Assembly (NCBI GenBank): GCA_012845835.1 | Contig: JABAKD010000005.1 | Location: 12,957,205 to 13,021,204, forward strand | Source of the DNA: Undaria pinnatifida | Taxonomy: Eukaryota > Sar > Phaeophyceae > Laminariales > Alariaceae | Direction: 5' to 3' | Length of the DNA stretch: 64,000 bases | In this document: positions 33,462-62,392 of the stretch, piece by piece | Numbering within the stretch: the first letter of the stretch is position 1 | How the letters are laid out: every line of letters begins with the position of its first letter | Notes under the pieces: generated by a model | Seen by the model: the letters and a program-made list of their open reading frames with translations, nothing else | The model's database searches: none | What the model was told of the DNA's origin: nothing | Program-made: the position numbers and the translations under genes

Positions 33462-33652
33462 AAAAAAATTGCGCAGGATTTGAAAAGAGTATTTGATGCA
33501 GACAAATATTTGAGCAGGATTTGAAAAGAGTATATGCCTGCAGACAAATATTTGCGCAGGATTTGAAAAAAGTATTTGCCTGCAGACAAATAGTTGCGTA
33601 GGATTTCAGAACAGTATTTGTCTGCAGGCAAATATTTGCGCAGGTTCTCAAA
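33462..33652 (+). repeat. 42-bp repeat array B (about 4 units)
   Basis: Same unit and orientation as array A, more diverged. It lies immediately before the hAT C-terminal domain. Between arrays A and B, 33388-33455 carries a fragment of the dispersed arm repeat. Confidence 0.9.
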
Positions 33653-33660
33653 AGAACACC

Positions 33661-34023
33661 CTGACGGCCGAACTGAGCTGCGAGGATGTGCTCCTGTGGT
33701 GGAAGAGGTGGGTCGACTCGTGCCCGCTGTTGGCCAGGGTAGCACGCGTGATTTTCGGGGCTCCTGCGTCGGCGGCAGTGCTTGAGCGTGACTTCAGCGC
33801 TGCTGGGCGTATGATTACGTCCTCCAGGAGAACCATGGACAGCAAGTACGTGGAGATGATCCTGTTCCTGTACGGAAACCTGGACCTTATCCCTCAGGAC
33901 ATCTCCAAGCTGGCCGAAGCTGTTGCGCGACACAAGATCCCCGGGCGACTGGTGGTCCCTGTGGAAAGGCTGGAGGAGCTCGACGGCGCTTTTGCGCCGG
34001 AGGACCTCACCGCCGAGCAGTAG
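33661..34023 (+). pseudogene. hAT transposase C-terminal dimerisation domain
   Basis: The 120-codon stretch starts LTAELSCEDVLLWWKRWVDS and includes IFGAPASAAVLERDFSAAG and MITSSRRTMDSKYVEMILFL, ending in TAG. The order W-W-K, P-A-S, E-R-x-F-S-x-x-G, R-x-x-M is diagnostic of the hAT dimerisation domain. The zinc finger and the DDE catalytic core are absent upstream, where only 42-bp repeats are found, so this is a remnant of an internally deleted element. Confidence 0.9.
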
Positions 34024-42600: not shown

Positions 42601-45600
42601 GTTTCGGAAAAACCTAGGAATAGCCCAGTGGGAGAATACGGGAGGGGGTGACTACTTGACCGGCCGATCGGAAATTGCACCAGGGAATATCATGAGCTCG
42701 GTTTGTCACCTCTACAACGGTTGGACAACTGATAGAGGGCGAAAACGCGCTCGATACGATATATCGATAATTCGAAGTTCGACACTATATATCGAAAGAT
42801 ACGACATACCAGAATTCGATAGTACGATATATCGAAAATTTCGATACGATATCCCAAACGATATCCAACGCTGTTACTATCGATAGCAGAACATATCGGA
42901 CTCCGACTATTTCGTATTTCGACATGAATTATCGAAACTTTCGATACGATATCCACTTATCATTAATAGCCACACACATCGCCGAACTCTATGTTGAACT
43001 CCTTCAATTCGTAACTACTGTAGTGTGGCGTCATTTCGCCGTTGTATGTAGAAAGAAGACCACGTTATTGAGGACGAGTTGCATGAAATTAGAGTTGACG
43101 AATTTTGCTGTCGTAAAAAGGCCGCGCAATCGGGGGGGGGAGGGGAATACTTGGAAATAGTGTGCCTGGTACGTGCCATTTCTGCAGCCGTAAAAAAGTT
43201 ACAAAACACGTTTTGGGGAAGAATCTACTTGGAATTAGTGTGGGGTTACTTTTTCAAGTTGTGAAAGGTCACCTTATTGAGTGAAAATACTTTTAGTTCG
43301 TGTGGGGTAATTCGGCAGTCGTGAAGTGCCACGTAATGGGGCAAAAACTACTTGGACTTAGTGAGGGGTCATTCTCGCGGTTGTCAACAGCCACGTTATT
43401 TACGGCAACCTACTTGGAACGAGGGTGAGGTAAAACTGTATTCACAGTAAAATACCACGTTATTGGGATAAACTATTCGGAATATGTGTGGGGTCGTTTT
43501 TGCGGCCGTGAAATGCCACCTTATTGAGTAAAAACTACTATTAGTTAGTGAGGGGTCATTTTTTCAGCCGTAAAATGCCACGTTAAGGGGTAAAAACTAC
43601 TTAGATTCAGTGAGGGGTGTGGACAGTGGAGCACCAGAGAGTGTAGTGTTGTTGGTAAGACACGATAGTTGATCTTGGTGGTGATTGACTGTTGAGGATC
43701 TAATGTGGTGTGTGAACGTTATCTAGATCTGAAGACAACTACTGTGTGAGGAAGTAGACTAAAAATGTTGAACAACAAATGCTACTCGAGTTATTTCCTT
43801 CTAAACTCGTTTTTCCACCACATTCTCCCCCACTAAACCTGACATATTTCCCAGATTATGTCAGGAACCCCGATGAGGTACCCAGTATCCAATGCGACTT
43901 TTTCGGGATTGGAGTGACTTGCAATGATCCTATACATTGCTCTCATCGTTGTTTTTAAATGGTTGAGTTTTACAGGTTCTTGAACGTGAGAAAATCCCTT
44001 TTTTTTTTTTCTTTTTTTTTTTTCTGTGCCCTGTGCCTGGGAAAGACGGTGAGAATCGAACCAGCGACCTCACTGTTCATAATCTCACATCCTGTCTGCG
44101 ACGCCATTGTGAGGAAGTAGACTAAAAATGTTGAACAACAAATGCTACTCGAGTTATTTCCTTTTAAACTCGTTTTTCGAGACGAAATAGTACGTGCACG
44201 AGGAGTTTGCTGACTCGTAGTTGCTGGCGACCCGCTACCGCCGTGTTGCATGTCTGTACTGGTACGACGTGAGGCAACACTGCCATCATGACTGTGAGGT
44301 ACGTAACGTGGCGACGACATGTTCATACTCAAAGCAGTATCCGACGGAGCAAGAGAAGGAGTAGGCGACGAGGCAGCACTAGACGGTGAAACATCATTTT
44401 GTATCATCATGCTACTCGTTGCTTCTTGGTCAGATGCGCTACTCGGTTCATGTCGACGATAAAGCTCACGGCTCTCAACCCCAGCGACCGTTTTATCTGT
44501 AGGCTTAGTCGGGCTACCACGGGTACTCCCACCCGATGAACCAGGGTCAACCCCCTGAGAACGCCCGACAGCGTCGCGCGCCTGCGCACGCGCCGCCCTA
44601 CTTTGAGACCTCGTCCGAGGAACGCTAACGGACAGGTCTACCCCCTGCCGATGAGCATCCCTCCCCTTCCCCAAACTCTGCTTACCCATTTTGTTGGCAG
44701 AAGACATATTTTCCCGATGAACCTAGAAGGACACAGAACTGCTCGACGACGCCGCTGAAAGGGGATGGAGTCTAGCTGAGTCCTTCATTGATGCTGAAGT
44801 GTAAACTGGTTGCTGATGTTCGTGGTGTCGGTACAGTGGCTCAAGATCAAGGAAAAATTACTTTTATTAGTGTCTCTGCAGAAATGGTTGAGAGCAGGGA
44901 AGTGACGAGACTGATCCGATGTGGCTCGTTTTCCTTGCTCATTTTGCTCCAAATTGCTACATAACTCTTCCTATTTTCAACAACACAAAGCAGTACTTCA
45001 ACAGTACCTGTAGGAAAAACAGGCTCTCCTCAGATAACTGTTACTTAACGCCTACATAGACTACCTTCACTAGCAAAGACTCACTTCTTCTCAAGCTTCC
45101 CGTGACTCCTCTGTCCTTGCTCTGTCTAGCCTTGCTACTTTCGTCTCCAACTGACACTTGTCTTTCCTCTCTTTGAGATTATCCTATTTTCTCCGTGCAA
45201 TAACCCATGAAAATGTCACCAAACTACTGAGTTTTAGTGTACATTTTCCCGTTCGTTCCTCTCAGTTCATAATTAATCTCTTCCTGCCTTAATTCAGTAA
45301 AACCTGTCATTCCTCATGAACTAAATTCCGTCATAATACAACTGAACAAAGAGGATAGCCGGAATTCTTGCTCATGAAGAAATTGCATTTTCCCTAATCA
45401 AACATCCAATTATTCTAAATTGAAACCTTCTGTCTGCAGTCTCATCGCAAATGAACCTTTTTCTATACTAATTCCTAGTAAATTTCCAATCTCACCACAA
45501 CTGTAGTAGGGGTTTCTACTCATCCTCTTCTGGATTCTGATATAGGGATTCGGGGATGAAGTTAAGATCGCTTGCTTTCTTGTGTTCGGAGCTAATACAA

Positions 45601-48600
45601 CAACTTCTCTCTCCTTTTTTAGCACCTGAATGGTGCTGACCAGCCCCCCCTCAGGCCAAGGGGGGATACTTTCTGGTCAGTAGACCTTGCCTAGCTTAGG
45701 CGTGTCTACAATTATCGATAATTCAGGTTGAACACACCGACGTTGGTCAGGGATTTTTTCTGGGGGCATTGTGGACAGTGGAGCACCAGAGAGTGTAGTG
45801 TTGTTGGTAAGACACGATAGTTGATCTTGGTGGTGATTGACTGTTGAGGATCTAATGTGGTGTGTGAACGTTATCTAGATCTGAAGACAACTACTGTAGT
45901 AGGGGTTTCTACTTATCCTCTTCTGGATTCTGATGTAGGGATTCGGGGATGAAGTCAAGATCGCTTGCTTTCTTGTGTTCGGAGCTAATACAACAACTTC
46001 TCTCTCCTTTCTTAGCACCTGAATGGTGCTGACCAGCCCCCCCTCAGGCCAAGGGGGGATACTTTCTGGTCAGTAGACCTTGCCTAGCTTAGGCGTGTCT
46101 ACAGGGGGCATTCTTGCAGTCGTAAACGGCCGCGTTGTTTTGGGCACACTACTTTGAATGAGTGTGGGGTCGTTTTTGCAGTATTAATAGTACAAGTCCA
46201 CATTATTGGGACAAACTTTTCAAAATTAGTGTGGGGTCATTTTTGCAGCAGTGAAAGGCCACGCTATGGTGCAAAAACATCTGGGAAATAGAGAGGGGGC
46301 ATTGTTGTAGTCGCAAACTGCCACGTTGTTTAAACTACTTGGCATGCGTGCGGGGTCATTTTTGGGGTCGTAAAAGGCCACTCTTAGGGGAGAAAACTAG
46401 TTGGAATGAGTGGGGGGTCATTCTCGCAGGCGTGAAACGCCACCTTATTGAGTGAAACCTACCTTTAGTTACTGTAGGGGGTCATTTTGGCGGTCGTGAA
46501 ATGCCATGTCATGGGGTATAAGCTGCGTGGAAAGAGTGAGGGGGCATTGTTGTAGCGGTAAAAGGCCGCGATGTTTACGGCGAACCACTTGGAATGAGCG
46601 TGGGATCGTTTTCGCAGTCGAAAAATGCCACATTGTGGAGCAAAAACTACTTGAAATAGTGGGGGAAATGCCGCAATGTGGAGCAAAAACTACTTGAAAT
46701 AGTGGGGGCATTGTTGCAGTGGTAAAAGGCCAAGTTATTTACGGCAAACCACTTGGAACGACCGTGAGATCGTTTTTGCAGTCGAAAAATGCCGCGTTAT
46801 GGGGTGAAAGCTGCTTGGAATAAACGAGGCGACACCCTCGCAGGACTTTATAAAGGCCACGCTATTGGGAACACACGTGGACTTGAGGTGGGATTATTTT
46901 TGCAGTCGAACAAAACCACGCTTTCGAGGAAAAACTGCTTGGCATAACGTATTGGGGGGTCGTTTTCGCAGTCGTAGAAAGCTTCGGTTTTGGGGGAGAA
47001 ATATTTGGAAGTAGTGTAAGGTCATTTTGCAAGTCGTGTAAGGCCACTTTGTTGGGTAACAACTACTTGGAATCAGTGTGAGATCGCGCATGCAGTAAAA
47101 AGCCACATTAGTGGGGACAGATTACTCGGAAATAATATGGGGTCGTTTTTGCAGGTTTGAAGGCCACGCTATCGGGAACAAACTTGGAATTGGTGTGGGA
47201 TCATCTTTGCAGTCGAATAAAGCCAAGCTTTCCGGGAAAAGCTCGTGCTTGACATAAGGCAGTGAGGGGTCGTGTTCGCAGTCGTAGAAAGCCACGCTTT
47301 TGGGGAAACACTACATGGGGTTATTCTGGGTTCATTTGGGCAGTCGTGAAAGGCCAAGTTATTGGGTAAAAACTACTTGGAATCAGTGCGGGACACATAC
47401 TATGGAAGGGGTGCGTCATTTTCTTTCCGGGGTTCCTCCGTCGAGGAGCTCTATACCCGACCCTGGTACTGAATTTGAGAAAAATACAAGCGCCACCCGA
47501 TGAACATTCACTCCCACGGCCTAGGTATGCAGCAAAACATATTGAAAAACAAGGATGTGGAATTCCGACGACTTTGGGTTAACCCTTTTAGCACCGCAGT
47601 CCCGACGTGGGGACAAAACACTTGGAGTTAGACTACGATAGTTCTAGGAGTCGGAAACGCGTCGTAATGCCGAAACCGTTTCAGCCAAAGAGTGCTCCCA
47701 ATATTGTAGCGCGCGTCGTGGGGTTATGTATGCAGCAATACGCAACATGTGGTGGAGTGGAGAAAAACTACTTGTAGCAAGTGTAGGGTAATTCTTTCCG
47801 TTGTAAAAGGCCATAGCTTTTGGAATAAACTACTTGGAGTTGATGTGGGATATTTTTTTCGATTGAATAAAGCCGCGCTTTCGAGGAAAGAGCTACTTGG
47901 CGTTACGTAGTGAGGGGTCGTTTAGCAGTCGTAGCAAGCCACTTTTTTCGGTTAAAGCTACTTGGAATTTGTGTAGGGTCATTTTTGCAGTCGTGAAAGG
48001 CCACGTTATTGGGTGAACGAACACGTAAACACTACTCGGAATCACTGCGTGGGGGCATGAATGCAGTAATACGCAACATGTGGTGGAGTGGAGGCACACT
48101 TACTTGTAGTTAGTGTAGGGTCATTTTTTCAATCTTTAAAGGCTACATATTTTGGAATAAACTGCTTGGAATTGATGTGGGATACTTTTCGCAGTCGGAT
48201 AAAGCAACGCTTTCGGGGAAAAGCAACTTGACATGACGTAGTGAGGGATGGTTTTAGCAGTCGTAGAAACCGTGTTTTTGGGTAAAACTGCCTGGTACTT
48301 CGAGTTAGTATAAGATCATTTTCGCAGTTGTGGGTGAAACTGCTTGGAATCAGTGTGTGGGGTCATGCATGCAGGCCACATTAGTGGGTACGAACTACCT
48401 GTACTTTAGTGTAGTCATTTTTTCAGAGGTAAAAGGTCACAGCGTTTGGGGCCAGCTGCTTGGAATTGATGTGGGATATTTTTTGTAGCTGCAAACGGCC
48501 ACATTAGAGGGATAGGATTACTTGCATTAACGTAGTGAGGGGTCGTTTTCGCAGTCGTAGAAAGCCATGTTTTTGTAGATTAACCACGCGAAATTAGTGC

Positions 48601-51600
48601 GGGGTCACTTTGGCAGTCTTAAAGAAGGGGTTAAGAGGTAGTCGCGTGCTGCACAAGTACTTTTTTTTTCTCACCGGAATGTACTCGGGCTCTTCTCTCT
48701 TCCAACGATCAATCCCACCCAAGCTCCAGGCGAATCCGGCGAAGTCTCATCCGCCTTTTTGTGTGATATGTTTCGGCGCCCAGGTGTAATTGGCAAGGGG
48801 GTAACAGTTAAGCTATTATGCTATCACGTGCGAAACAAATTGAGCACACACTGAACAGCGCGCGCCCTGGCTACGAAACACGCACACCTGGTGTGCAAAT
48901 GAGACTTTTCACACCCCCACTCTGCTCCCAATCTGTTCGTTAGGAGCGTGGCCATGGCTGGGTGGGTAGATCGTCCGCTTCTGAGCATGCCACGCGTGGG
49001 TTCGAGTCCCAGCATGGTTGAATTCCTCCTGGGTTAAAAGGGGCCAAAAATATTATTGATTTCTCCAGTAGAACAGTCCTTTGCTAGGGGTTCGCCCCTG
49101 AGAGCAGTGGTAAGCTGTCGGGATTCGACGAACTTCAATAAATATACATCGAAAGCATATTTTTCGGGTTGTGCATAGAAGCCCTCCCCGTTGCGCTACT
49201 TCGGTCGCTGTGACGGAGTGGCATAGTGGATAGTGCTATAAAACCAACGCGCTCAGCACCCTGTTCCCACCCGGCCCTAAGCCCTCCAAATTGTCCTTTG
49301 GTGTATACCAATTCGCCGGCAGGGCCCACCAAGCCCCGTGGTCCCACACCGACCAGGGCCGCCAAAACCGAGGGTTTCCACCACACTGCCAAAGCAAAAA
49401 GTAATACTGTAAAAGTAGCTTTGCCTGGGTTAGGTGACCGATCGATAAATGAATGTTAGGGTCGGGGAAAGCTAATTGCGCACCGGGTGTGCAAGTATCA
49501 CTCTGCACACCCGTTAGTACACACCAGCATGGCGGTATGCAGGTGTTTTTTTAGTCTACTTTCCTAAGGAGGCATGCTTCCGTAGGGAGGCATCCTCTTT
49601 TTCTCAGGTTCCTCGCTTGAGAAGCTCTATATATTAATTACTCAACCACTGAGTTTGAGCCAAACACCGAATTTGAAAAAAAAAACGTACGCATAATCCG
49701 ATTAACAGTACCACGACTGGCTGTTCAGCTGATTGTTCGGCCCGTTCATTGGTTGGATAGTTTGGTGCTTGCTAGGAAATAAAATGACAAAACGTTAATG
49801 ATGTTCTGACACTGTTAGGTGAAGGATCCCCGACAGTCAGATTTTGTTCTGCCAAAAAAGCTACCCATATCGTAGGGCACGTCTAAGACTACTGCTTGTT
49901 GATCCTGCTGCTACTGCGACTGCTGCTACAGACGATGATGGTGCCAGTTGGTGGACATTCTCGGTTCGGTCCGCCAGAGCGTACACACGATCACACTGCT
50001 ACGTAGAACACGCGCGCACCTGGCAAATCCCGTGATTCTCCACATCGATCGGCGACGGAATATCGTTGAATTTGGGGTGGGAGTGGTACCACCCGACCAA
50101 CTGTTTCAGGGCAACCACGATCACGATAGCGACAACAGTAGCAGTATAAGTAAAAGCAGGGTCTGCAGCAGCAGCAGTAGTAGTAGTAGTAGTAGTAGCA
50201 GCAGCAGTAGCAGTAGCAGTAGTAGTAGCAGTAGCAGTAGCAGTAGCAGTAGCAGTAGCAGTAGCAATAGCAGTAGCAGTAGCAGTAGCAGTAGCAGTAG
50301 CAGCAGCAGTAGTAGCAGTAATAGTAGTAGCAGTAGCAGCAGTATTAGTACCAGCAGCAATAATAGTAGCAGCAGGAGGAGGAAGAGTAGGAGCAGTAGT
50401 AGTAACTGCAGCAGCAGTCGTAGTCGTCGTAGTCGTCGTAAGCATATATAAGACTCCGGGGTAATGAGTTAAGACGAAGCTAATTCCGGAGTGGTTAGAT
50501 TCAGTAAATGTCGTCTACACGTGGACCTTGTTTACAGACTCAATGTGACCTTTTGGATGAGACATGTCGCCGATTCATTCCAGATTCGTGAAAGACATAA
50601 TGGCGCAGGGTTCTCCGATCTTACACTTGAGTCTCATTTGTGAGGTCGATTTTCTCTTAGTACGGACGCCCTAAAATCCGGTACACCACTGTAGAACCAG
50701 AGAGATGGAGGCGTCGAGAGGGATAGGAAAAGGGGACGACCCCACCTGCAAGCCGGACCTCTTGATGGCCTGGCCAGCGTTGTGGAGCGACATGAAGTTG
50801 GCCTCCACCTCCGTTTTTCCCCTGTCCCCCTTAGAGCGTTCCTCCTCCAGGCAGGGTACCGCCGCCTATGCTCGCGCCCGAACAAAAAAAAAACGCAGCC
50901 GGGGTAAGGGGGACGGGGCCAGCGTGAGTGACCGCTCTGCACCGGCCGTTTTTCGTATCGACTTCATTTTTGCGGAGGTTCGTTCTTGTACAGAAACGGT
51001 CATAAAAAAAAAACACCACAACATTTGACACGGTTCGAAAAAAAAGCGAAACACGACAAAATATGTACCCCTGGCATTTAAACTACTTTAGTTCCTGTTC
51101 GGTACTCATCACTGACCTGGATATAGAGAACCCCTTGCTCCCGATCGTAACGTCCTGCTAGCACCCCGATCACTTCGGCACTGTCCATCATGTAGGAGTG
51201 GACATCCGCAACGAACTGCACGTTCGGGTGAACCTGCCATCATCATCGCCATCAGGGTGTTTGCGGGCTCGGTCTTTGCTTCGTCGTCGATTGATTGGTT
51301 GATTGGCCATTTGGTTAGTTGATTGGGTGGTCAACCCGTTGTCTCAGCCGTTTCACGATTGGCGGACTACTACAGGAGAAGGCAGGCTGAACGAGTCAAG
51401 GCTCTCATTGGTCTGAACGATTCAACTCTCCGATTCATCTGGGCCATTCGACACTGTGACGGGTTGACAAAATAACGGGGAAGTTACCGATTCGGTAGAC
51501 AAACGAACATCTAAACAAACGAGGCTACTATGCATACAGGTTCAAGAAGGTGGGTAGAAATGCTAGAGAGACGGAAGGTGTTTACGCGTTTAGGCCAACA

Positions 51601-54600
51601 ACGCGGGAAAAAAAATGCGGTGTGTAGGGCTGAAGCCAGATAGTTCAGTCATCACTACGTCGCCACGCCCATCAAAGAGAATCTCCCTACCCGGCCTACT
51701 CCGGGTCGTGGAACCTCACCTTCACCGCGAATGGCTGCTTCACGTGCTCGAAGTACCCGCCGACACCGCCGTACTCCTGTCAGGGCAACAGGCATAGGTG
51801 TGGCCTTCAAACTAGTGCTGGCATCTATTTAGGCACACCGGAGCGAAGCTTGCAAGTGTTGAGTGTTGAGTTGAAGCCGAACCCTTGATATTGAAGTCGG
51901 AATTTTGAGTTGAACTGGATTTACTTGTTGAATTTGGAGTTCCGATTTGATTTCAAGTTGATTTTTTAGTCCATTGTTTTTTTCAAGTGTGCACTGGGGC
52001 ACCCCTGAAAAATATAACGCGACACACCGCACCCCCATGAAGTCAAAACGAAAAACAAACCAGGGCGTTGTAGTCACAGGGCGAAGTATGAAAATGCCGG
52101 GCACATTTTTTAGATCTTAATTTTCACTGGCTTTTAGCAGTGTTGTAGCCTCCTCTCCTGCCTAGCGAAAAAGGCCTCTGCGGCGCGTCATTCTTTTTCT
52201 TTATGGGCGCCCCTTACTTTGCAGTTGAACTTGAAGTTGAAGAAATTAAGCTTCAATTTAGAGGTCATGTCGAAGTCAATATCGTCGGTGCTTGGCTTTC
52301 GATCTCCCGAAGTAACAAGATCTCACGCGGTTGGGGTGGCGTTTTGGTGTAGGCGACTACGTTCGAGATGCGATGACCGCAACATGTCGAATGACCCTCC
52401 CCGCTCGTCTACACACCCCGACGCACGTAGACATCGTCGTGGAAAAAAAAACAGCTAAACAGTTGACTTAGCATGTAACCTTGTTACTGCTTCATAAATT
52501 ACCGACACTAAAAATAATGCTAGCAGTTTGCTTCCCATAATTGCTTGAGAATGAACTACATTCAAATTCCAAGTAGGTGCTCAACAGCGTCGGTGAACTT
52601 GAAAAACAGGTTAATGGACTGCAAAGCGTGGGTAAAGTTGATAATCAGGCTTATTAGACTCAAGGGCGTGGGTGCAGGTCTACGAAGCCACTGGAAACAA
52701 CCCATTCACTGCAAAATCTAAGCAGCTTGTCTCCCAAAACGTGGACGTAGTTGAAAAAAAGAAGAAGTGGAAACATTTTGGGACCAATGATAAAAACGGT
52801 AAAACACATTGCGGCATTATCGCATCGCGTGAGTGTGCTGCAAACGAGCTTTCATGCTACCCACGTGTCATGAAACTCCCTGAATTTAGGGCCGACATCA
52901 AAGTATCCAACCCAAAAAATCGTAAGAGTGCTATAACCACGGAGTACTCAGTCTTTTTAACTTTTGGTGTTCCAGGTACTCGCCACTACTCAATCATCTC
53001 AGCTCCTGGTACTCTAGGTACCTACAAGTGCTCAAGTCATTTCAGCTCTTGGTACTGTAGGTACTGAGACATTCAAAATGAGCGGTACTCGCGACTTTTT
53101 CGCTGCGTATCACTGGCTGGCCAGTAGTCACGGTGTATGTGTGCGTTGTTGGTGCACAACAGGAGATCGAACCATGATAACATTTTCACGTCCACCGCAA
53201 CAATCAAACACACATCGTCGGACCCCACACCAGGTATACGAAGCATACAGCAGTAGCAAAAGCACTATCAATAGCTCATACATATAATTGCAAAGCCTAT
53301 GTTCCCCTTTTCGATTTGCTAAGCCCCCGGGACATCAGTCAATCGATTTCGAAGGGGAAGCTCGTATTGTATTTTGTGTACGGGTTCGTAGCCGCTTTAT
53401 GTTTATATTTGGCAGAAGTGCACCACATATCATGGGCCGAGGCCCCGGGCCAGGCCGCGAAAACGCGTGGGCCGTCTCATGAGCAGGCTGGACGTCGTCA
53501 TCGTAGCAGCAGCAGTGCACCACATATTATGGGTCCCGGCCCGAGCCGGCCCGTTACAACACGTGGTGGGCCGCCTCATGGACTGGGTAGAGCGGCCCAT
53601 AAAAAGCCCACATATCATCGGCCGCGGCCTGGACCTACCCATCAAATTCGAGTCGATGGGCCCCGACCCGGCCAGGCCCGGCCCATCGAATTTCCAGGTC
53701 CATCAATGTTTTCAAATTCTCCGCCCAGCCCGGCCCAGCACGGCCCATCACATTTTCAAAATTCTCGGCCCGGCCCGGCCCGGCCCAGACCATGTCAATT
53801 TTCAGATCGGCCAGGCCCGGCGCGGCCCGCACAATCGGGCTTTGACAAGCCCTGAAAAATGGTAGAGGAAAAAACTGCCGGGTACATTTTTTGTGGATTG
53901 GGTTGGCCTTGGGTAATGAATTTCGTCGGTTTCAATACTATTATTGTATACTTTCCTACCCAGCCAAATTTGGTATCTCGCAAGCACCCTGTTTGCGACT
54001 GTCGTCAAGTAGGGACGCACGCTACGGTAGAGGCTCACCAATCATTTTCTGAGAGGCCGTTCACTCGAGAGGGGGCTAGCTCTACACCTCGCCCAACACG
54101 AGGTCTAACGTAACAAGGGGAAGGGCAAACCCGCGAACAATCCCACGGCCAAGGTATTACACGAAAGACAATGGAAAACACAAATGTGGGTCCAACGGGT
54201 TCACTAGTTTGCCCTTTTGGGGCCCAAAAAATGCGATTAAAAAAAACGAGATGTATGTGCGGCCTTAGCGCCCGTCTAGTGTGAGCGCGCAGCAGGACGA
54301 GTAGTATCATGCTGTTGGTATAGCGTGTCGTGCAGCTCCTTGGGTTGCAATTATTATTAACGCAAACTAACCACTCCCAGAGCCTTCAGCTCGCCGTGCT
54401 ATTTTGTTGTCGGTGCGGTCATCGTCGACAAATGTTTCGTTCATCTTTACCTTTGAAGTCCCAAAAAGGGTTAAGGAGACCCGTCAGGCAGAACCTAGTT
54501 GACGAAAAAAAAGCCACCCCTGTCGTAGCAAGCTTTCAAATATTCTCTGAAAACGTTAGTGAGGTTTATTTAACGCCTTTAGGACTGGAAACCCTTCTTG

Positions 54601-57336
54601 GCGACAAACTTACTTGAATTTAGTATATGGAGGGATTTTGGAGCTCTAAAGGGGCTAAGGTTTAACCCGCCTCCCACAGCAAAAACAAGTCCGAGACCAA
54701 CGCAACAGAAGGGGGGTTATGTTCGTGTTATGTTGTTCTGGAGCCATTTTTAGCAGTGGCTCCGAGTCATTCGCGCGAGTAACAGCCCCCCTGTTCCTTG
54801 CGGTCATAGGCTTTCGTGCTGTATTCAATTTTCAATGTGAGTCCTCAATGGGATGGTTAGCTACGCTGCCTTAAACAAATCGCCCCACGTGGTTTTGTCG
54901 GCGAGGTACAGAGTCACCCACTCGAGTATGATAGCTCAGACCCGATATCGAAAAAGGGGGTACCCGCCCATCGCAGTCTTGATCTCGACGATTATCTGTC
55001 CCTAACTTGTCTGGCCCCAAATCGCGGGTCACGTCCTACGGTGTTACATGGTCGACTAGACACAAGCGGTGGGATTTTACCCTCAACTTTACTTCCAAAT
55101 ACAGGGGGCAGTCAGTACCCCGGTTTCAGAGCGCGAAATATAAGAGCATTCGGAACTCCAAGGGTGGCCACAACAATCGGCACGACCCCGTCGATACTAA
55201 CGTCTTCCGGTATATATTTCCCGCTGCAGGCAACAGCGGCGTGTACTTAGTTACCTGATGGAGAACTGCGCCCAACTTATTGGGGGAAAATCGCTTGGAA
55301 ATAGTGTGGGATGCGTTTATCAGTTTTAAAGGGGTAAGAGCGCTCGTTTCGGGTTTTTTCACAGGAGGCTCTTAAATTGGGGTATCCACTCAATTTTTTC
55401 GGTCCTGCAAACGTGGAAGCAAGTGTAACGGTCGGCGCTTACCTGCGGGGGGATCAGGGCTTTTTGGTTGTCAAGCCGTCCCGCGCCGAGCGTGTCTAGG
55501 ATATCATCCTGGTGCGTCTTTAGAGAGCTCCCCCAGCTCCCGATCGAGGTGCGGCAAGCGGTCCGACCCTGCGGCGGACACGGGAGGGGAATTTTTCTAA
55601 GGTTGTTTAGATTACGTCAGTTGTGAATGCGATCGTTCGAGTGGTTGATGCTCAACGTTACAAGCTGCGTGATACTTCGGCCGCGCGTTTTTACATATCC
55701 ATTCCTCTGTAAGGATTAGAGTCAGCGACTTTCCTGATACATATAATTTACAAGGGCTCCGCATGGGCGCCGGCATTCGCCGGCGCCCATGCTTCGGGTA
55801 GGGCAGGGCAGCACTTCGACAAGTTAAGGTGTAGCAGTCCGATTTGACATTCATCGAACTTTAAAGTAATGCCACGAGTTCAATACGAACATGAGAATAT
55901 GAAGGTCACAATTTGACAGAAAAAAAAGGCATATACAACAAAGAAGGCAAGGATAGGCGAAACACACTGTTGTCAAATACGCCGTCAAGTAAAAGTTGGC
56001 GTATGTCAAACAAAAATTCCAAAAAGAGTATTGAGAACCTGCTTCGCCTCTAGGCGAAACGACAGAAGACTTGGCATCAATGAGGAGACTGCACTGCTGT
56101 CCCCGTGGCAATGGAGGTTCGAAGTCGACAGGATGCAAAGCCGGTTTGCATCAGACGTCGACATGGGGCCGTGTCAGCCGGCGAGGTTTAGGAAGAAGAG
56201 CTGTGTTCATTATCTGAAGGCTGTCGCATTGATTGGTCTGCGTGGTCACGGGCGAGGAGGAAAAAGAATAAGAGGAGAGCGATTTCTCGTAGCGGCGGCG
56301 TTGTCTAAGATAGATGCGGGGGTGGCTTTGCTCGTACGGCAGGTTGGCGTAGCGCTTCTTTTCTGTTTTAACTCGGGAAGGCGGGATATGTGTATCTGCT
56401 GTCTTTGCTTCGCGGGTGCTTTGACGTTGTCGAAATCGGACGCGTCCCCTCAATAAATAATATCCGGAGTGCCTCTACCATGACGACTGCTGACAGTGCC
56501 GTGCGTATTTTCTACTTAGAAAATCAAAATACATATATACATTTTCAGGTAGCAGTATTTTTTTGTTTCGGACTATGCGCATAGCGGAAAAGGTCGATGT
56601 TTGGTATTTTACATTTCCGACTGAAAGCCTTGAGATAAAAAATAGGTGCAGACACTCTAGTATCTCCTTTCAGGATGTACTTCTACTGCACCAAAAATAA
56701 GAATTCTATCAATATTTTTTGCCTAGAGAGAAGAATGAACGCAAACAAATGAAAAGCTCCGGAAAAGGATAGGGGTGTGCTGCGTGTGGTAGTAATTATA
56801 TACCTTTGCAACATGTTTTTTTCTTCATGCCATTTATTATCCTCGCACCACTCTCGCGCTCCCTCCCAGTAGTAACTCAGATCCTGGGTCACATAGCGGG
56901 CCCTCCTCCCCCCTCCCCACTTCGGCACGTGCCTTCATTTTTATCGCGAGAAGAAGTCAGCATTTTCTTTCCTCGTCGACTCGCGTCGAGTTGTACCTAC
57001 CCACGCTGCTAGGCGCTCTCAGCAGTTGCTCCCTTCTTTTTTGTATTTTTGCAAGTAAAGTCAAATGTCATCATGGTGGGAATCGAACTCAAGGACAAAC
57101 AAAAGTTAGTAGTATTCAAGGGTAAAACCACTAGACCACCGCGGCGACCGGCTGACAATTGAATATAACAAAACAGGACAGTTGCATAGATATTACGTTC
57201 CCCGATATTGTATGATATTACGATGGTTGACGCCGCGATGCCCTGAGACGTGTTGACTGTGGTGTCAGTCAACATTATTTACTGATGATGGAGCCTGTCC
57301 TGTGACCACGGACTTGATTGTGCGAGTTAATGTGAG

Positions 57337-57368
<32 letters not shown>

Positions 57369-60300
57369 CTGCTGCTCTTGAAGCTCGGAATTCGAAAACT
57401 GCGTACCAGGTATATATCGTCGACCATTATTTCAGATTATTTACTGCTGTATTATCGATTGCTCGCGCACACGACATGTTTTCAAGAAGATTCCTATTGC
57501 TACTACTGCTGTAGATTGTTGCTGAGTCATCGATTAGTAAGCCATGCGTTGACCCGTTCTCGGAAAAAGAACTGCCCAGGAATCCAAAGTCCAAAATCGT
57601 CCCCGCGATTCTCGCATGTGTTTCTTACCTCCCGTACGTAGTACGCGTTCACGGCCAGGTGTAGGGGACGGATAAGGAAGGCGTTGGGCAGCGCCGTTCG
57701 AACAAAGTGATTTGACCGAGAAATCCTACAGCACTACCCACTGAGCTACTTAAATCACTTGACCCAGTAGCTCAGTGGGCAGTGCTACATATGTTAAACT
57801 ACCAAAATAACAATTCATAATGTCGTCAGCGCGCGCGCTTGAAAAAGGCAGATATGAAGTCGGTGAGCATCGAAGTCACGACACATAGCACTACCCACTG
57901 TCACCTGACTCAGTATCTCAGTGGATTATGCTAAAAATGCAACCAAATATGTTTTTGAGTTCGTTACTTAATTATCACCGACTTCGTAAGAGGGATTTCC
58001 GAAGCTATATCCCCTCTCCACGTACTACAGTTAGTAGTACTCAGGAGAACACGAACAGCTATTATTATAACCATTCATCATGTCCCCAGCGCGCACGCTC
58101 CTGAATACCAAATATGATCTGAGTGAGAATCGTACTCACTACACATCCTTCGTTGGTTACATAGCACTATACCCACTGAGCCGAAAGGCAACGACACACA
58201 GCAGCAGTGGTAGTAGCTACGATAGGGCAAGCGCTTCGAGGCCGCCATGAAAAAAGCGACGTCAGGAAGAAATTTTAGATTCCAATTTGGAAATTATGCC
58301 AATTTGGAAATGCTGTCCCTTGATTTTTTCGTCATATATATGCTCAGATCCAAGAATAGCTTGAGCGTATACCACCCGAAATACGAAACAAAGCGCACTT
58401 CTCGCTTGTCTCGCTCGGCGTCTATCCGCGTTCACGTCGAGGTGCGGAACGGATACGGCAGGGCGAGGGGCGGTGGAGCCGCCCCTGGAAGACCGCGCTC
58501 GAACGAAGCTATTTTACCGGGAATTCCGGTTCCGATAATCGCATACGAGTACTGAGGCCGAGACGAAAAAAAAACTCCTGACCGAATCCCCCCCCAAAAG
58601 AATGATTTTTATAATATACTGAAGTATTTATAGTGATGGCAATCAACAAAAAAATCAGTTACGGTGATTAAGCGATTACTTGCGAATACTCACAATCACC
58701 TGATTCAAGAAAAAATCAGTGACGGTGATTAAGCGATTACTTGCGAATACTCACAATCACCTAATTCAAGAACCGAGGCCGTACGTGGCGTGATGATTTG
58801 GTTATTTCAGCTGTATGTATGTTAGTGTGCCATACTAATCGCCATAACGTCAGGTGTGTGTGGATTTAAAAAAAGACATTCTGAACGCCATACAAAAAAT
58901 ACTTGACAGAGGCGTGTTTAGCAGTGCTGTCAAAAATGGTACCTGGTGCAATGTGCGTTTGAGTATTCCCATTCTACAATGCCCTACAACACAAAAAGAG
59001 CAAAGTCGTCATGATTGATCAATCACGCATTTAGACAAAATAGCCATTCATCCAATCAACTCAGTTTTCCTGGTTTATTTGCCAGCACAAGACCAAGAAA
59101 TCCTGGTGAGGTCGTGTTACAGCGACCAAAAACACTACCGCAAGGGAGTAATAGTGGGAGCGCACAGTACTATGTTATAAGGCTTAGGTTGGAATAAACT
59201 TTTTCAGACTTTCCCTGTGTTGAACTTGAAAATACTCTCCCCGGAATACCCAAGAAATGAAACGGCTTAGATAATTGACAGGTCCGCCCGTATATCCGGC
59301 CGACCTGCTATCCCGCCGTTTCAGGGGGGGAGAGTGTTATAAGGCTTAGGTTGGGTAAGCTATGGGTTAACCTTTTCAAGCGGTCAAACGGACTATTACC
59401 CCACTAATACCTTAAAAACTACGATTACAGCAGTATCATCTGCGCACGTGTTGAAGGCGCCCTTACGATGTAGTTCGGAAATACACCTGAGCAGGCCGGG
59501 CTACTTCGCGCGGCCAACACGGTAATCGTTACTTTTTTTCGACATCATTCCCCCCCTTCAAATCCCAAAGTTTTTCTTGAGCGTGTCCGTTTAACCCCTT
59601 GAGCGTAGACAGGTCGCACACGATGAAACAGGGCTAAGGCGCATAGTTGCCAGAAGATATTCAAACGCAACACGTACATATTAGAGCTCCCCTTGAGTGA
59701 GCAGACAGGGAGAGTCTCGAAGGAACAAAAGGCGGAGAAGTAATACACAAATTCCCAAAAAGACGGAGTTGTCCGCTATGCATTTCCCTCTACGAAAAAT
59801 CCAACCTACTATTGGAACTCCCTGATATAATCAACCGCAATCAAATCCGTGTCAAAATAAAATCTCAGTCAGCAAGTTGTAAGACAAACCACACGCACGC
59901 ACCTTTCCTTTTATCTGCTCCCATGAAAGCGAAGGCAGAGCACGTGACGGCGCCGCCAAGCCCTGCTCCACCTCCCCGCCCCCCACACCCCCTCCTCCGC
60001 TGTGTCCCCCCTCCACTTCCACCGACCCAACGACGGACGTTCCTCGCCTCCCCGACACGTCGTCACCCCCTATCCTTAGCCCACCAACAGGCAGCGTCCC
60101 CCCCGTTCCCGATATCACGCCCATCTTCGCCGACCGATTACCCCGTCGGATGACCGGCGTAGCCCTACCCCCACCCATCGCAGCTCCTCCTGGGGTAGAC
60201 GACGGGACGGCAGGGAATAGAGTCGGTGATGCGCAAGCGGGTGCCCCTTCCGACACGTGAGTGGCCGCGGACCCCGATAGCCCCCCTACACCAAACCCGC

Positions 60301-62392
60301 GGCCGACCGCTCGGCCTACAACACCGCCGCCGCCATCACTGCCGCCACCACCACTACTATCACCACCGCCACCCTCACCGTCGATAGCACCGTCACCACC
60401 GACACCATCGATATCGACATCCATCGCCCCGTCAGGCTGAAAGTCAAAGTACTCACGGTCCCAGACCATTGCCCCCATTATATCCGCGGTAGAAACTTTC
60501 GCCCCTCCACCAGGGCCACCCTGGTTGTGCGGGAGGTAGACCCACGGCGTGGGCGTCTCCGGGACGACGGCGTGGCAGGGAGGTTCCGGCTCCATCGACT
60601 TCTCGAAAGCCCCCAGCCGTTTTTCCTCTGGCGTCTTCACGGCAGCTGCCGGTTTCTTCTTCTTGGTAAACTTCTCACCCTTCACTTTATTTCCCGTCGC
60701 GTTCGTCTTCATGATTGCCTTGCGGACCACCGCCGCACCGCCGCCCCCACCCCGCGCCGCGCTGCCGCCCGCGCTAACATCCGCACGAACACCGCTTGGG
60801 CCGCCGCCATCAGCTCCAACGTTTGGGCTGTTTCCGCACGCGCCAATGCTTGGGCTGCCGCCCCCGACGCTTGGGCCGCTGCTCGCGCTTCTCCCCGCAC
60901 CAGCAGCTGGGATAGCCGTTGCGTTGGCAGCTTCGTTGAGGGTTCCGCAAGAGGTCGGGCTACAGGCCTTGCTAGCCCTCCGGATAGACGCCTTGCCAGC
61001 GTTCAGAGTAAGGCAAAGGCTAGCGCTTTGGCCGTCATCGGTGCTGTCCGATCCACCCGCGGTCTCAGTAACGCGGCGTACCACACCCACGCACTCAACG
61101 TCACCACCGCCGTCGCTGTTGTGGGGGGTGCTAGCTTCAGCGGGGGGCTTCTTCTTGCGAGAAGCGTCTTTCTTCCTGCGGGAAGCCGGGGAGGTCTTAC
61201 CAGCGGGGATACTGGCATTTTCGCCACCAGCTTCGGCACGGGTTTTCTTCTGGGAAGCGCCGGGTTTCTTCCTGGAAGCGGAGGAGGTTTTACCACCTGG
61301 GATGTCAACGCGTTTACGGCCGGGTTGCTTGAGGAGCCTGTCTGGTCCAGCCTGCACCTGACAAGCCTGATCTCGTTGCTTGGAAGGCGCGAAACCAACG
61401 TTCAATTTTCGCTTGCCCTTGCATCCCTTTGAGTTTTTCTTCTTCCTTCCAACCAAGGCACTTGCCGCCCCCGTGCTGCTTACTATCTCCATGGCGCTGT
61501 CGGCGCTGTTGGCGGCAGTGCTGATCCTGCTGCTGCTGCTGCTTCCGCTGCTGCTGCCGCTGGCATGCAGCGCACCAGCCCGGCCAGCAGCCATCTCAGC
61601 ACCAAACTGCGCCACCTCTCCCCCGGCACCAGCTTGAAGGCGACGGCGAGCTGAACGCCTTTTAGGCACAGCCACCTTCTGGCCTAATTTTGCCGCCGAT
61701 ATCCGTCTGCTATCCGCGAGCGGTTCGCCTACGACCTTGGTCGCCTGTATCTGAGCTGCTGGCGCCGGCGCTGGTGTTGCCACTGCTGCCGTCGCTGCCA
61801 CCACCACCACCGCCAACGCTGCTGCTGCTGCTTTAGCTACCGGTGCTTCCGCCGCCGCCGCTGCCGCTGCCACCGAAGCTGCCCGTATTTGTGGGGATGC
61901 CGCCCCCGCCGATGCTGCCGGTGCTACCGGTGCTACCGGTGCCCGTGCTGCTGCTATTGCTGCTGCTGCCGGCGCTGCTACTGCTGCTGTTGCTGCTGTC
62001 GGTGCTGCCGCTGCCGCTGCCGTTGCTAACGCTGCCACCGCCCTCGCCGCACGCTCTTCCGGGGATATTACCGCTGCCGGTGCTGCTAGTGCTGCCGCTG
62101 GTGCTGCTTCCCGTGATGCCCTCGCCGCCACCGCGAACGCCCGTGCCGCTGCCACCGCCGCCGACGGTGCTGCCGCTGCTACCGGTGCTGCTCCCGCTAC
62201 TGCTTCCGGTGCTGCCCCCGCCGCCGCTGCCGCAGGCCCTGCCGCTGCTGCTGCTGCCTCCGCCTCCGCCGCCAGCCAAACATCTTCCTCGACGTCTGAG
62301 TTCTCCACATCGGAGGGACCGGTCTCTATTTCGCTCTGCGGCCCGTCTCCGTACAGCATCGCCGCTATATCTGATGTAGATGCTTTGTCCAT
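36576..62392 (-). CDS. Spliced JAMM/MPN metalloprotease (deubiquitinase-like) gene, provisional model
   Basis: Minus-strand exons: 62392-59903, 51776-51720, 51233-51117, 50865-50746, 50100-50020, 48754-48675, 42613-41649, 41566-41462, 39269-38342, 37416-37305 and 36647-36576. Every junction is phase-compatible; the first ten exons give 1685 codons. The core is certain: it carries the MPN motif with the catalytic Glu (SAEVIGVLAGRYD), GWYHSHPKF and the S-x-x-D of the JAMM zinc site, which cuts ubiquitin isopeptide bonds in active family members. Before it lies an Ala/Ser/Lys-rich disordered region. After it come Ala/Gly-rich segments, a charged helix, a SUMO-interaction-like VFDLTADSFDDED and a SANT-like start. 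This composition suits a nuclear MYSM1/MPND-like protein. The outer exons could belong to neighbouring genes. Missing small exons are possible, above all in the 8.1-kb first intron. Confidence 0.5.
36648..37304. other. Intronic sequence with a hairpin
   Basis: A perfect 9-bp stem with 7-nt loop sits at 36853-36877 (TTCGCAAAT...ATTTGCGAA). 37090-37290 is an A-rich, 'aacaagaac'-type low-complexity stretch. No gene of its own is supported. Confidence 0.4.
37305..37416 (-). CDS. JAMM gene, downstream exon (helical segment)
   Basis: 112 nt after CTGCCCCGTAG, ending CATGGAG|GTATGG. One base completes an Arg codon begun by the previous exon, then 37 codons including APLSWGNRTGVSSLEKLARS and LAQTVDHME. 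Phase fit and helix-like composition support it; there is no family match. Confidence 0.45.
37440..37540 (+). repeat. (CAGG)n tetranucleotide repeat
   Basis: About 100 bp of 'ggcaggcaggcagg' with single-base variants. Intronic in the JAMM gene model. Confidence 0.92.
37874..38093. repeat. Imperfect palindrome made of two inverted copies of an exon end
   Basis: The left arm (37874-37974) and right arm (37982-38093) are reverse complements with a few-base centre. The left arm is a direct copy of 38342-38421, the 3' end of a predicted exon. Read on the minus strand it gives GGIGGYGPKIGRAMNSLVSL. Read on plus the right arm gives GGIGGC(stop)LQMGRAIDSSVSL. The functional exon has RIGGYGPQMDRVIDSLVSLG. 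The copies extend slightly past the donor site. Confidence 0.85.
38342..39269 (-). CDS. JAMM gene, large exon with SUMO-interaction-like motif
   Basis: 928 nt between a long pyrimidine tract ending GGCGCGACAG and CTGGGTCG|GTGAGTTT. Open for 308 codons. The peptide starts LDPTTPNGRGLGSIATAAPS and carries VFDLTADSFDDEDSD, a hydrophobic core plus acidic tail typical of SUMO-interaction motifs. A Gly/Ala-rich middle follows, and then the conserved-looking GLVFEAIAGIARDPPLNFSE and IGGYGPQMDRVIDSLVSLG. The apparent stop after this exon is the TGA inside the donor GTGAGT. Confidence 0.58.
39300..40440. repeat. Intron with G runs and dispersed repeat copies
   Basis: G runs at about 39306-39328, 39608-39622, 39712-39726 and 39980-39995. 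An inverted copy of the 'cgtgctccgtcccggc...' repeat lies at 39370-39500, and 'cgcatccctttcgagacgg' sits at 39683. Confidence 0.6.
40440..40910. repeat. Short tandem repeats, 'ccccccctgaaatatctgat' and its complement type
   Basis: About 20-bp units on 40500-40650, then oppositely oriented 'ggggtgatatatt' units on 40720-40910. The two halves could pair. Confidence 0.7.
40960..41062 (+). mobile_element. (CAA)n-tailed dispersed retroposon-like repeat
   Basis: Second plus-strand copy: 'ccctggggtattctt.cactccagagcgactgga', 'ccctgtcctatgaccacgga', 'cttgattatgcgagtt', 'gtgagagcaacaaccgcaacaac'. Intronic in the JAMM model. Confidence 0.65.
41063..41461. other. AT-rich intronic stretch
   Basis: Contains 'ttataatattaatattaat' simple sequence at 41260-41310. 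No gene seen. Confidence 0.5.
41462..41566 (-). CDS. JAMM gene, charged-helix exon
   Basis: 105 nt ending AAAGCAG|GTGGTT. Two bases, 34 codons, one base. Peptide ARLERKNWRDKLRDEAKSKD then KERRRTRARLMKA, a strongly basic, coiled-coil-like helix. The acceptor (GGGGCTGTAG) lacks a pyrimidine tract and implies an 82-bp G-rich intron (41567-41648), which is the weak point. Confidence 0.5.
41649..42613 (-). CDS. JAMM gene, exon following the MPN domain (Ala/Gly-rich)
   Basis: 965 nt. It starts after a good acceptor (TTCTCCCACTGGGCTATTCCTAG) and ends at GGAG|GTAAGG. The first codons read FFRNEATERISAHGEIISCP then MLLQASLATSKISAAAES, which joins in phase to the ...PSTFR end of 48675-48754. The joined STFRFF resembles the aromatic-rich strand (S.FRWF type) that ends MPN domains in this family. 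The rest is Ala-, then Gly-rich, with a two-copy motif of about 45 residues (each with W/RQAPE..ET...GSGF.RE). A telomere-like GGGTTAGGGTTAG lies inside at about 42219. Confidence 0.58.
42740..42960. repeat. CGATA-rich palindromic sequence
   Basis: Multiple 'cgatacgatatc', 'tatcgaaa.tttcga' and 'gatatatcga' motifs that pair with each other. Possibly a decayed foldback element. Intronic in the JAMM model. Confidence 0.6.
43140..43617 (+). repeat. Satellite-like array, ~70-bp units (family S2), left part
   Basis: Unit 'tacttggaattagtgtgggg' plus 'tcatttttgcagtcgtgaaaggccacgttattgggtaaaaac'. The array continues at 46104 after the LTR composite. It shares 'acttggaattag' with family S1. Confidence 0.85.
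43618..46103 (-). mobile_element. Composite LTR-type insertion interrupting the satellite
   Basis: Starts TGTGGACAG and ends GTGTCTACA. The satellite is continuous across it with GGGG duplicated at both borders. 45770-46103 looks like a complete 334-bp LTR: its first 129 bp recur at 43618-43746 and its last 208 bp at 45503-45710. On the minus strand a purine tract (GTGGGGGAGA at about 43819-43829) precedes a second short LTR-like sequence (43745-43818), which is repeated at 44106-44185. Ser-rich Gag-like frame at 43970-44707; no protease, integrase or RT. Probably a non-autonomous element with a nested or rearranged short one. Confidence 0.65.
43970..44707 (-). pseudogene. Ser/Arg-rich Gag-like frame in the LTR composite
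   Basis: 245 codons from MSSANKMGKQSLGKGRDAHR. The first 170 are rich in Ser, Arg, Thr and Pro with no zinc knuckle or capsid motif. From about 44190 down it reads into LTR-like sequence, a tRNA-like B-box segment (near 44060) and an oligo-A run, so the C-terminus is not genuine. Gag is inferred from position only. Confidence 0.4.
46104..48640 (+). repeat. Satellite-like array, ~70-bp units (family S2), main part
   Basis: About 35 diverged units of the same sequence as 43140-43617, with longer insertions near 47430-47600 and 47640-47760. With the composite element it fills most of the predicted 6.1-kb intron 42614-48674. Confidence 0.88.
48675..48754 (-). CDS. JAMM gene, exon with VGLIVG strand of the MPN domain
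   Basis: 80 nt after ACAAAAAG, ending TTCCG|GTGAGA. Reads ADETSPDSPGAWVGLIVGRE then KSPSTF. W-V-G-L-I-V-G and P-S-T-F-R correspond to the strands that follow the JAMM motif in MYSM1/MPND-like proteins. The acceptor choice (phase 0) is the simplest that fits but is not the only AG nearby. Confidence 0.7.
48950..49019 (+). mobile_element. tRNA-derived SINE head
   Basis: GGCCATG pairs with CATGGTT as a 7-bp acceptor-like stem (with two G-T pairs). There is an A box in TGGCTGGGTGGGTAGA and a B box GGGTTCGAGTCCC at normal spacing. The anticodon stem is poor and the T stem has a mismatch, so a SINE head is more likely than a functional tRNA. Intronic in the JAMM gene, antisense to it. Confidence 0.6.
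50020..50100 (-). CDS. JAMM gene, catalytic HSHP exon
   Basis: 81 nt, 27 codons, phase 0, after GCCCTGAAACAG and ending TGCCAG|GTGCGC. Peptide LVGWYHSHPKFNDIPSPIDV then ENHGICQ. It contains the full zinc site H-S-H-P, six residues, S-P-I-D, as in active JAMM proteases. The E-N-H-x-x-C-Q end aligns with the E-N-Q-x-x-Y-Q of relatives. Confidence 0.95.
50155..50440 (+). repeat. (AGT/AGC)n trinucleotide tract
   Basis: About 285 bp of agt and agc units in the intron 50101-50745. It produces poly-Ser, poly-Leu and Ala/Thr frames that are not genes. Confidence 0.95.
50746..50865 (-). CDS. JAMM gene, MPN exon between Glu and HSHP
   Basis: 120 nt, 40 codons, phase 0. Acceptor is a T10-containing pyrimidine tract ending GAGCATAG, and donor is TTGCAG|GTGGGG. 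Reads AAVPCLEEERSKGDRGKTEV then EANFMSLHNAGQAIKRSGLQ, the strand-loop-helix (A-x-P-C ... V-E ... A-x-x-A-I-x-R-x-G-L-Q) that leads into V-G-W-Y-H-S-H-P in this family. Confidence 0.92.
51117..51233 (-). CDS. JAMM gene, MPN exon with catalytic Glu
   Basis: 117 nt, 39 codons, phase 0, after GATGGCAG and before ATCCAG|GTCAGT. Reads VHPNVQFVADVHSYMMDSAE then VIGVLAGRYDREQGVLYIQ. The E-V-I-G Glu and the following L-A-G-R-Y-D turn are standard for MYSM1/MPND-like MPN domains. Confidence 0.93.
51720..51776 (-). CDS. JAMM gene, exon preceding the MPN core
   Basis: 57 nt, 19 codons, EYGGVGGYFEHVKQPFAVK, between TTGCCCTGACAG and AAG|GTGAGG. Phase 0 both sides, so F-A-V-K-V-H-P-N-V-Q-F reads on as the first MPN strand. 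Confidence 0.8.
51777..53410. other. Putative intron, low-complexity and unassigned frames
   Basis: 51850-52260 is rich in 'ttgaagttgaa' variants. A plus frame at 52672-53067 (131 codons, including KKKKWKHFGTNDKNGKTH) is unrecognised, and 'ggtact.taggtac' repeats occupy its end. Confidence 0.4.
53411..53854. mobile_element. GGCCCGGCCC-rich hAT-type MITE sequence, one clear end
   Basis: The right end reads GGGCTTTGACAAGCCCTG, the inverse of a CAGGGCTTGTCAAAGCCC hAT terminus. The body is 'ggcccggcccggcccag' in both senses. 53411-53620 has about 105-bp repeats with 'ccacatatcatgggcc'. The left terminus is not found. Confidence 0.5.
54455..54970 (+). repeat. Dispersed repeats shared with 19.1-19.5 kb and 23.5-23.8 kb
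   Basis: 54455-54660 resembles 23590-23810 ('ctggaaacccttcttgg..acaaacttactt'). 54765-54970 is the uninterrupted counterpart of the repeat that holds the MITE at 19161-19372. Confidence 0.6.
55007..55258 (+). CDS. Unassigned frame with faint AP2-like strand
   Basis: 83 codons to TGA. SRVTSYGVTWSTRHKRWDFT has the spacing of the first two strands of an AP2/ERF domain (S-x-Y-x-G-V-x-W-x-x-x-x-x-K-W). The downstream L-G-x-F/A-A-x-A-Y part is missing and no splice sites support it. Chance similarity is quite possible. Confidence 0.22.
   Translation: MSGPKSRVTSYGVTWSTRHKRWDFTLNFTSKYRGQSVPRFQSAKYKSIRNSKGGHNNRHDPVDTNVFRYIFPAAGNSGVYLVT
55761..55792. other. Perfect 14-bp GC-rich hairpin with ATTC loop
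   Basis: GCATGGGCGCCGGC, ATTC, then the exact reverse complement. No adjoining gene explains it. Confidence 0.9.
55793..57060. other. No recognised gene
   Basis: The plus frame 56031-56456 (141 codons) and its minus shadow show no domain. It forms part of the putative first intron of the JAMM gene. Confidence 0.4.
57073..57150 (-). mobile_element. tRNA-like SINE head with A-rich tail
   Basis: A box TGGTCTAGTGG (57138-57128) and B box GAGTTCGATTCCC (57090-57078), followed by 'gcaaaaatacaaaaaagaag'. The acceptor and T stems do not pair, so it is a SINE rather than a tRNA gene. Confidence 0.6.
57285..57370 (+). mobile_element. (CAA)n-tailed dispersed retroposon-like repeat
   Basis: 'gagcctgtcctgtgaccacg', 'gacttgattgtgcgagttaa', 'tgtgagaac' then twelve AAC units. 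Third plus-strand copy. Confidence 0.65.
57629..58560. mobile_element. Cluster of tRNA-derived SINE copies, two head to head
   Basis: 57730-57750 and 57766-57786 are inverted copies of AGTAGCTCAGTGGGTAGTGCT (an A box) with one mismatch. On the minus strand the first is followed at tRNA spacing by TTTGTTCGAACGG. Further copies: near 57880-57940, 58110-58190 (A box GGCTCAGTGGGTATAG, B box GAGTACGATTCTC) and 58440-58560. The 57629-57720 and 58440-58530 tails are homologous. Confidence 0.65.
58648..58770 (+). repeat. 61-bp tandem duplication
   Basis: 'aaaaatcagt.acggtgatta' through 'cacaatcacct.attcaag' twice, almost identical. Confidence 0.85.
59173..59360 (+). mobile_element. Possible LTR-retrotransposon remnant
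   Basis: TGTTATAAGGCTTAGGTTGG occurs at 59173 and 59335. The second is preceded by CAGGGGGGGAGAG, which looks like a polypurine tract next to a 3' LTR. Too little remains to define the LTR. Confidence 0.35.
59903..62392 (-). CDS. Putative first exon of the JAMM gene: Ala/Ser/Lys-rich disordered region
   Basis: 830 codons in phase 0 from ATG at 62392 (A at -3, G at +4; MDKASTSDIAAMLYGDGPQS) to GGAAAG|GTGCGT at 59903; the frame would otherwise close about 17 codons later. It has an acidic N-terminus (SDVENSDVEEDVW), about 170 residues dominated by Ala, Lys/Arg-rich repeats of the type G-G/P-K-T-S-x-A-S-R-K-K, and Gly-rich loops. It looks nuclear and disordered. An upstream ATG at 62473 is possible. 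Membership of the JAMM gene rests on phase fit, strand and position. A separate gene is the alternative. Confidence 0.52.

Follow-up and report, generated by a model that had tools for sequence, protein, structure and literature searches.

A stretch of 64,000 nucleotides from the brown alga Undaria pinnatifida (assembly GCA_012845835.1, contig JABAKD010000005.1, positions 12,957,205–13,021,204; hereafter the window, in whose own numbering positions are given) likely carries on its minus strand the catalytic core of a gene for a JAMM deubiquitinase of the MYSM1/MPND group. The gene is cut by introns of about 0.25–1.3 kb and probably continues in further exons upstream. The presence of a JAMM/MPN domain with its zinc-site residues in an intron-cut gene is supported by profile searches, and the placement in the MYSM1/MPND group by alignments with human members of the JAMM families.

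A JAMM domain in five short exons

By reading the sequence, we found five segments of the minus strand, each with AG before and GT after it, which join in phase into about 152 codons (Table 1) and are separated by introns of about 0.25, 0.5, 0.65 and 1.3 kb. The AG/GT borders, phase and length given for these exons in the initial annotation are as stated, and the catalytic Glu strand, the GWYHSHP block and the following Ser and Asp that it named are present in the joined peptide. The zinc-site set Glu, His-x-His-x7-Ser-x2-Asp is intact, with SAEVIG in exon 2 and HSHPKFNDIPSPID / GWYHSHPKFNDIPSPID in exon 4, and exons 1–4 contain no stop. We take the pattern E...HSH-x7-S-x2-D to be the JAMM zinc site.

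The comparison of the joined peptide with MPN/JAMM profiles, suggested in the same annotation, gave a significant result. Pfam searches covered the minus strand at 42600–60499 in full and nine single frames of the window, and the joined exons 1–5 match the JAB profile at 47.2 bits (E 2.2e-12; profile positions 5–113 of 117; cut-off 22.5). Without exon 1 the match is 43.5 bits (E 3.2e-11). If nothing is spliced, the frame containing exon 4 still reaches 19.9 bits (E 6.6e-4), which is under the cut-off, so a frame-by-frame annotation would just miss the curated threshold. The match of the joined exons, together with the sub-threshold signal before splicing, shows a genuine domain and excludes chance as an explanation of the domain taken as a whole. 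Matches to BRCC36 and CSN5 among solved structures (see below) further support a JAMM domain. Four NCBIfam models were also matched, all below their own cut-offs, the best being the haloarchaeal desampylase (8.8e-8). Among viral contigs, 10 pattern matches included no relative. Judged from its sequence, the gene is a real and probably functional representative of an established enzyme family, with a predicted zinc-dependent isopeptidase activity.

Table 1. Positions of the JAMM exons, of candidate upstream exons and of Pfam-matching features elsewhere in the window
Feature	Position	Strand	Description
Exon 1	51776–51720	−	EYGGVGGYFEHVKQPFAVK; 19 codons; phase 0; strand preceding the domain core
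Exon 2	51233–51117	−	39 codons; SAEVIG with catalytic-type Glu, codon 51176–51174
Exon 3	50865–50746	−	40 codons; lies between Glu and HxH
Exon 4	50100–50020	−	LVGWYHSHPKFNDIPSPIDVENHGICQ; 27 codons; HSH zinc ligands, Ser, Asp
Exon 5 (tentative)	48754–48675	−	ADETSPDSPGAWVGLIVGREKSPSTF; 26 codons and 2 bases; strand after the zinc site
Probable upstream exon	55568–55443	−	phase 0 at both ends; top homology-free candidate (30.7); codon p 0.054
Possible first coding exon	62392–59903	−	ATG and 830 open codons; ends SWEQIKGK, then GT donor, phase 0
Reverse transcriptase, RVT_1, retroelement	31574–32353 and 32239–32991	+	45.1 and 53.7 bits; two overlapping frames
Reverse transcriptase, RVT_1	17694–18248	+	37.7 bits
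hAT transposase C-terminal dimerisation region	33514–34020	+	54.4 bits

In order to judge whether the arrangement is unusual, the chaperonin family PF00118 was searched in the same genome, and 57 matching pieces were found, about 1 to 3 kb apart in clusters (for example, at 12.909–12.922 Mb of contig C29). The 29 pieces used for training (see below) are 32–87 residues long (median 52); these lengths are set by the extent of the profile match and are not those of exons. Splitting into short exons is routine for conserved genes of this genome, where such exons look normal, so the JAMM arrangement is ordinary, although its exons lie at the short end of the range. That the exons are hidden, as first proposed, therefore holds for a plain reading of frames and not as a peculiarity of this gene, since chaperonin genes are cut up likewise. 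A long AGCAGT-type microsatellite (50167–50418) is located in the intron preceding exon 4 and keeps the frame open, so that exon 4 is buried in a 171-codon Thr/Ala-rich frame.

Probable affinity to MYSM1 and MPND

The domain was aligned locally with human JAMM proteins, whose sequences were typed in and not taken from a database. Z is 29.1 for MYSM1 and 25.0 for MPND, against 12.7 for CSN5, 12.6 for BRCC36, 8.7 for RPN11 and 7.2 for AMSH. When the GWYHSHP block is taken out, MYSM1 (16.4) and MPND (14.1) stay strong, CSN5 is weak (4.2), and BRCC36 (0.8) and RPN11 (0.0) are near chance; the value for AMSH is 0.9. These alignments suggest that the domain probably has its affinity with MYSM1/MPND, which are chromatin proteins of animals. 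The likeness to MYSM1 in the initial annotation is thus upheld in so far as the domain is nearer to MYSM1/MPND than to the other four families, by comparison with these typed-in sequences.

With MYSM1 (2A-DUB), 45 of 129 aligned columns are identical, and the two domains share the zinc-site pattern, an FxVKV strand before the core, AEVIGxLxGRY, a PC turn and the GWYHSHPxFxxxPSxxD spacing. Unlike MYSM1, the kelp locus has no SWIRM or Myb domain detected nearby, its C-terminal part was not found, and the Asp is followed by ENHGICQ, whereas MYSM1 and the other families compared have Thr-Gln there. With MPND, 38 of 104 aligned columns are identical. MPND is described as an acidic region, a RAMA domain, a second acidic region and the MPN domain (PMC9963953), whereas no RAMA domain was detected at the kelp locus; this absence is weak evidence, because RAMA sequences are described in the same source as poorly conserved (PMC9963953).

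As a member of this group, the domain would bind one zinc ion through its two His and the Asp, and the Glu would activate a water molecule. The protein would cleave isopeptide bonds between ubiquitin and a lysine.

Exon tests without homology

Codon log-odds were trained on 29 pieces (1519 codons) from the same genome, 26 from chaperonin and 3 from JAB genes. In all, 33 pieces had been taken (30 chaperonin, 3 JAB), four of which were dropped for stops, and a fourth, stop-containing JAB piece (L004) was left out. The codon p values were obtained against stop-free stretches of the flanks, and these null flanks include neighbouring exons. The p values are 0.026 for exon 1, 0.043 for exon 2 and 0.013 for exon 3, the last being the best of the five. 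The codon scores of exons 1–5 are 0.51, 0.20, 0.55, −0.11 and −0.29 bits per codon. Leave-one-out scoring of the training pieces gives a median of 0.59, with the 5% point at 0.23.

All acceptor-donor candidates on the minus strand at 44801–59880 were then ranked with generic, hand-set splice weights. Acceptors scoring below 2 are omitted from this ranking, so the acceptors first drawn for exons 2, 3 and 5 were left out. The four best non-overlapping candidates are the segment 55568–55443 (30.7), exon 3 (30.5), exon 1 (28.6) and exon 2 (19.4). As controls, the best of 20 dinucleotide-preserving shuffles scored 19.1, which exon 2 barely exceeds, and the best of the plus strand 17.1. For exons 2 and 3 the ranking prefers nearer, frame-keeping acceptors (51215 and 50844), because those first drawn score only 0.2 and 1.5.

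A dynamic-programming gene model was run at four intron costs. At each of them it kept the segment 55568–55443, exons 1 and 3 in full, and a part or the greater part of exon 2. On its 29 test pieces the programme found 4145 of the 4557 in-frame bases; no piece served in the training for its own test, although others from the same gene did. It called 13290 of 91557 bases exon, some of which are real neighbouring exons, and it probably overpredicts.

Completeness of the domain and alternative explanations

Several observations weigh against the reading as a JAMM gene of the MYSM1/MPND group. The human sequences in the family comparison were typed in, as described above. The codon p value of exon 4 is 0.086, that of exon 5 (0.16) gives no coding signal beyond chance, and exons 2, 4 and 5 score below the 5% point of the training pieces, weaker than a typical chaperonin piece. 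In the ranking, 38 of the 1675 overlapping candidates stand above exon 4 as first drawn; exon 5 is absent from it because its acceptor scores −0.9, and the dynamic-programming model never picks either of them at any intron cost; both are putative exons placed by homology and order. No Pfam or displayed PDB alignment extends to the WVGLIVG strand of exon 5, and from 48660 down to 40000 nothing convincing was found that could encode the remaining C-terminal part of the MPN fold. Finally, Pfam gave no match of any kind, and hence none to SWIRM, Myb or RAMA, on the minus strand at 51500–60499 (three frames, E up to 1) or at 59903–62392, although domains cut by introns could escape such a search.

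The best phase-compatible candidate past exon 5 (42422–42272; score 26.2) is a low-complexity frame of Ser, Thr and Asn. Since the remainder of the C-terminal fold was not found down to 40000, calling the JAMM/MPN domain complete, as the initial annotation did, was an overstatement. Its claim that the expected strands flank the zinc site holds on one side, where exon 1 raises the JAB match from 43.5 to 47.2 bits, while the strand in exon 5 is tentative and lies outside the Pfam and displayed PDB alignments. WVGLIVG is the sole match to a loose MPN-strand pattern on both strands of the window, but this counts for less, because the pattern was composed with that strand in mind.

The region directly after exon 5, where the remainder of the domain might be expected, consists on the minus strand (46000–48600) of diverged repeats with recurring CGAAAACGACCCC-like wording. 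Two arrays were called there, with a period of 62 at 46332–46447 and a period of 43 at 46623–46708.

The locus could be a decayed or truncated copy, in which the core survives and the 3' part has been lost or replaced by repeats, but we consider this unlikely. Such decay would fit the lack of a convincing exon beyond exon 5, the weak acceptor and codon signal of exon 5 itself, and the ENHGICQ that stands after the Asp in place of Thr-Gln. However, exons 1–4 are free of stops and retain all zinc-site residues, the 3' exons may sit past a longer intron, and no second locus for the JAMM protein was present among 9 scored candidates of the genome, so no spare duplicate was seen. Two of the loci examined, L009 and L010, are located 12 kb apart on contig C1 with equal weak peptide matches (E 0.93), perhaps a duplication of something unrelated.

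It is somewhat less probable again that the gene lies outside the MYSM1/MPND group, as an ortholog of BRCC36 or of another standard JAMM subunit (CSN5, RPN11). CSN5 and RPN11 share the JAMM fold and motif, and the best phmmer matches in PDB are BRCC36 (E 9.2e-6; query 23–125) and CSN5 (E 4.3e-4; query 31–123). However, the PDB set apparently contained no MYSM1 catalytic chain to be matched, as a typed-in MYSM1 fragment found none in it, and the likeness to BRCC36, CSN5 and RPN11 falls to the low Z values given above once the HSHP block is removed. Moreover, around the zinc site other loci of this genome read like RPN11 (L002) and like BRCC36 (L012, with VVGWYHSHPHITVLPSHV, the BRCC36 form as in the PDB alignments), while a CSN5-like locus was not sought by name. 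With L012 as the BRCC36-like locus of the genome and Z near chance without the block, a BRCC36 ortholog was rejected.

A chance origin of the joined peptide through the choice of exon borders has hardly any probability: the borders were picked by eye and weak acceptors precede exons 2, 3 and 5, but the JAB match improves from E 6.6e-4 unjoined to 2.2e-12 joined and the homology-free ranking recovers exons 1–3, so chance joining is rejected for the whole domain and could still account for exon 5.

Possible exons upstream

Two upstream segments of the minus strand, 55568–55443 and 62392–59903, are phase-compatible with exon 1 and with each other, and both may belong to the JAMM gene; no Pfam match was found for either. 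The frame 62392–59903 is Ala/Gly-rich with basic KKK stretches, and the GC content is 64% at 60–62 kb. Its codon score of 0.00 bits per codon is under the chaperonin range, which might come from the Ala/Gly-rich make-up. This long low-complexity N-terminus, if it is part of the protein, would guide the enzyme to chromatin.

A 44-base segment at 58983–58940 (GIVEWEYSNAHCT) was also tried as an exon after 59903 and rejected: its acceptor is good (10.1), but its codon p is 0.44 and it breaks the phase to 55568. In the same part of the window, an imperfect repeat stretch rich in GGGCCGGGCC is located at 53400–53850, and a 61-base repeat in two copies with 96% matches at 58649–58772.

Other conserved sequences in the window

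The JAMM domain had been put forward as the only clearly conserved enzyme in the window, which does not hold, since reverse transcriptase and hAT transposase sequences on the plus strand also match Pfam (Table 1). For the frame 16010–16885, which precedes the reverse transcriptase at 17694–18248, Pfam gave nothing at E 0.1. The hAT match is set among repeats (about 33.0–35.1 kb) with frames reading like FACRQIFAQDFKRV. Scans of the window for tRNA genes and Rfam families gave nothing, and its 2-kb GC values average about 50.5%.

Chromatin context in brown algae

MYSM1 is described as taking monoubiquitin off H2AK119 (PMC9963953). In Ectocarpus, the core PRC1 and PRC2 proteins are reported to be absent and an H2AK119ub antibody to give no signal, and in three further brown algae RbAp48 is the only one of these core proteins reported to be present (PMC7784034). 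A second study likewise reports that PRC2 was lost in brown algae and that PRC1 homologues are absent (PMC13076208). Ubiquitylation is still among the histone marks found, according to the legend of Fig. 1 (PMC7784034). Brown algae are also described as having H2A variants of their own, with the replication-coupled H2A absent from brown seaweeds (PMC12459048).

In PMC7784034 no word begins with "deubiquit", and in PMC13076208 the sole word beginning with "ubiquit" is "ubiquitous", "deubiquit" not having been searched there. Among the matches listed for JAMM proteins and brown algae in the literature, no title is on this subject.

With PRC1 reported absent and H2AK119ub undetected in Ectocarpus, an enzyme of the MYSM1/MPND type in that alga would have to act on another substrate, and that of the kelp protein would probably be other than H2AK119ub if brown algae truly lack the mark. 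We tentatively raise the possibility, which is doubtful at present, that a chromatin JAMM enzyme of the MYSM1/MPND group was kept in brown algae despite the loss of PRC1 and H2AK119ub and acts on a different substrate. This may be another site of H2A or H2B, a brown-algal H2A variant or a non-histone protein.

In summary, apart from the substrate puzzle the gene is ordinary: it adds another JAMM enzyme to those of eukaryotes, and its chief use lies in the annotation of a kelp genome. If the placement in the MYSM1/MPND group is true, brown algae would possess an eraser of the H2A deubiquitinase group without its known writer, and the question of its substrate would be directly testable.

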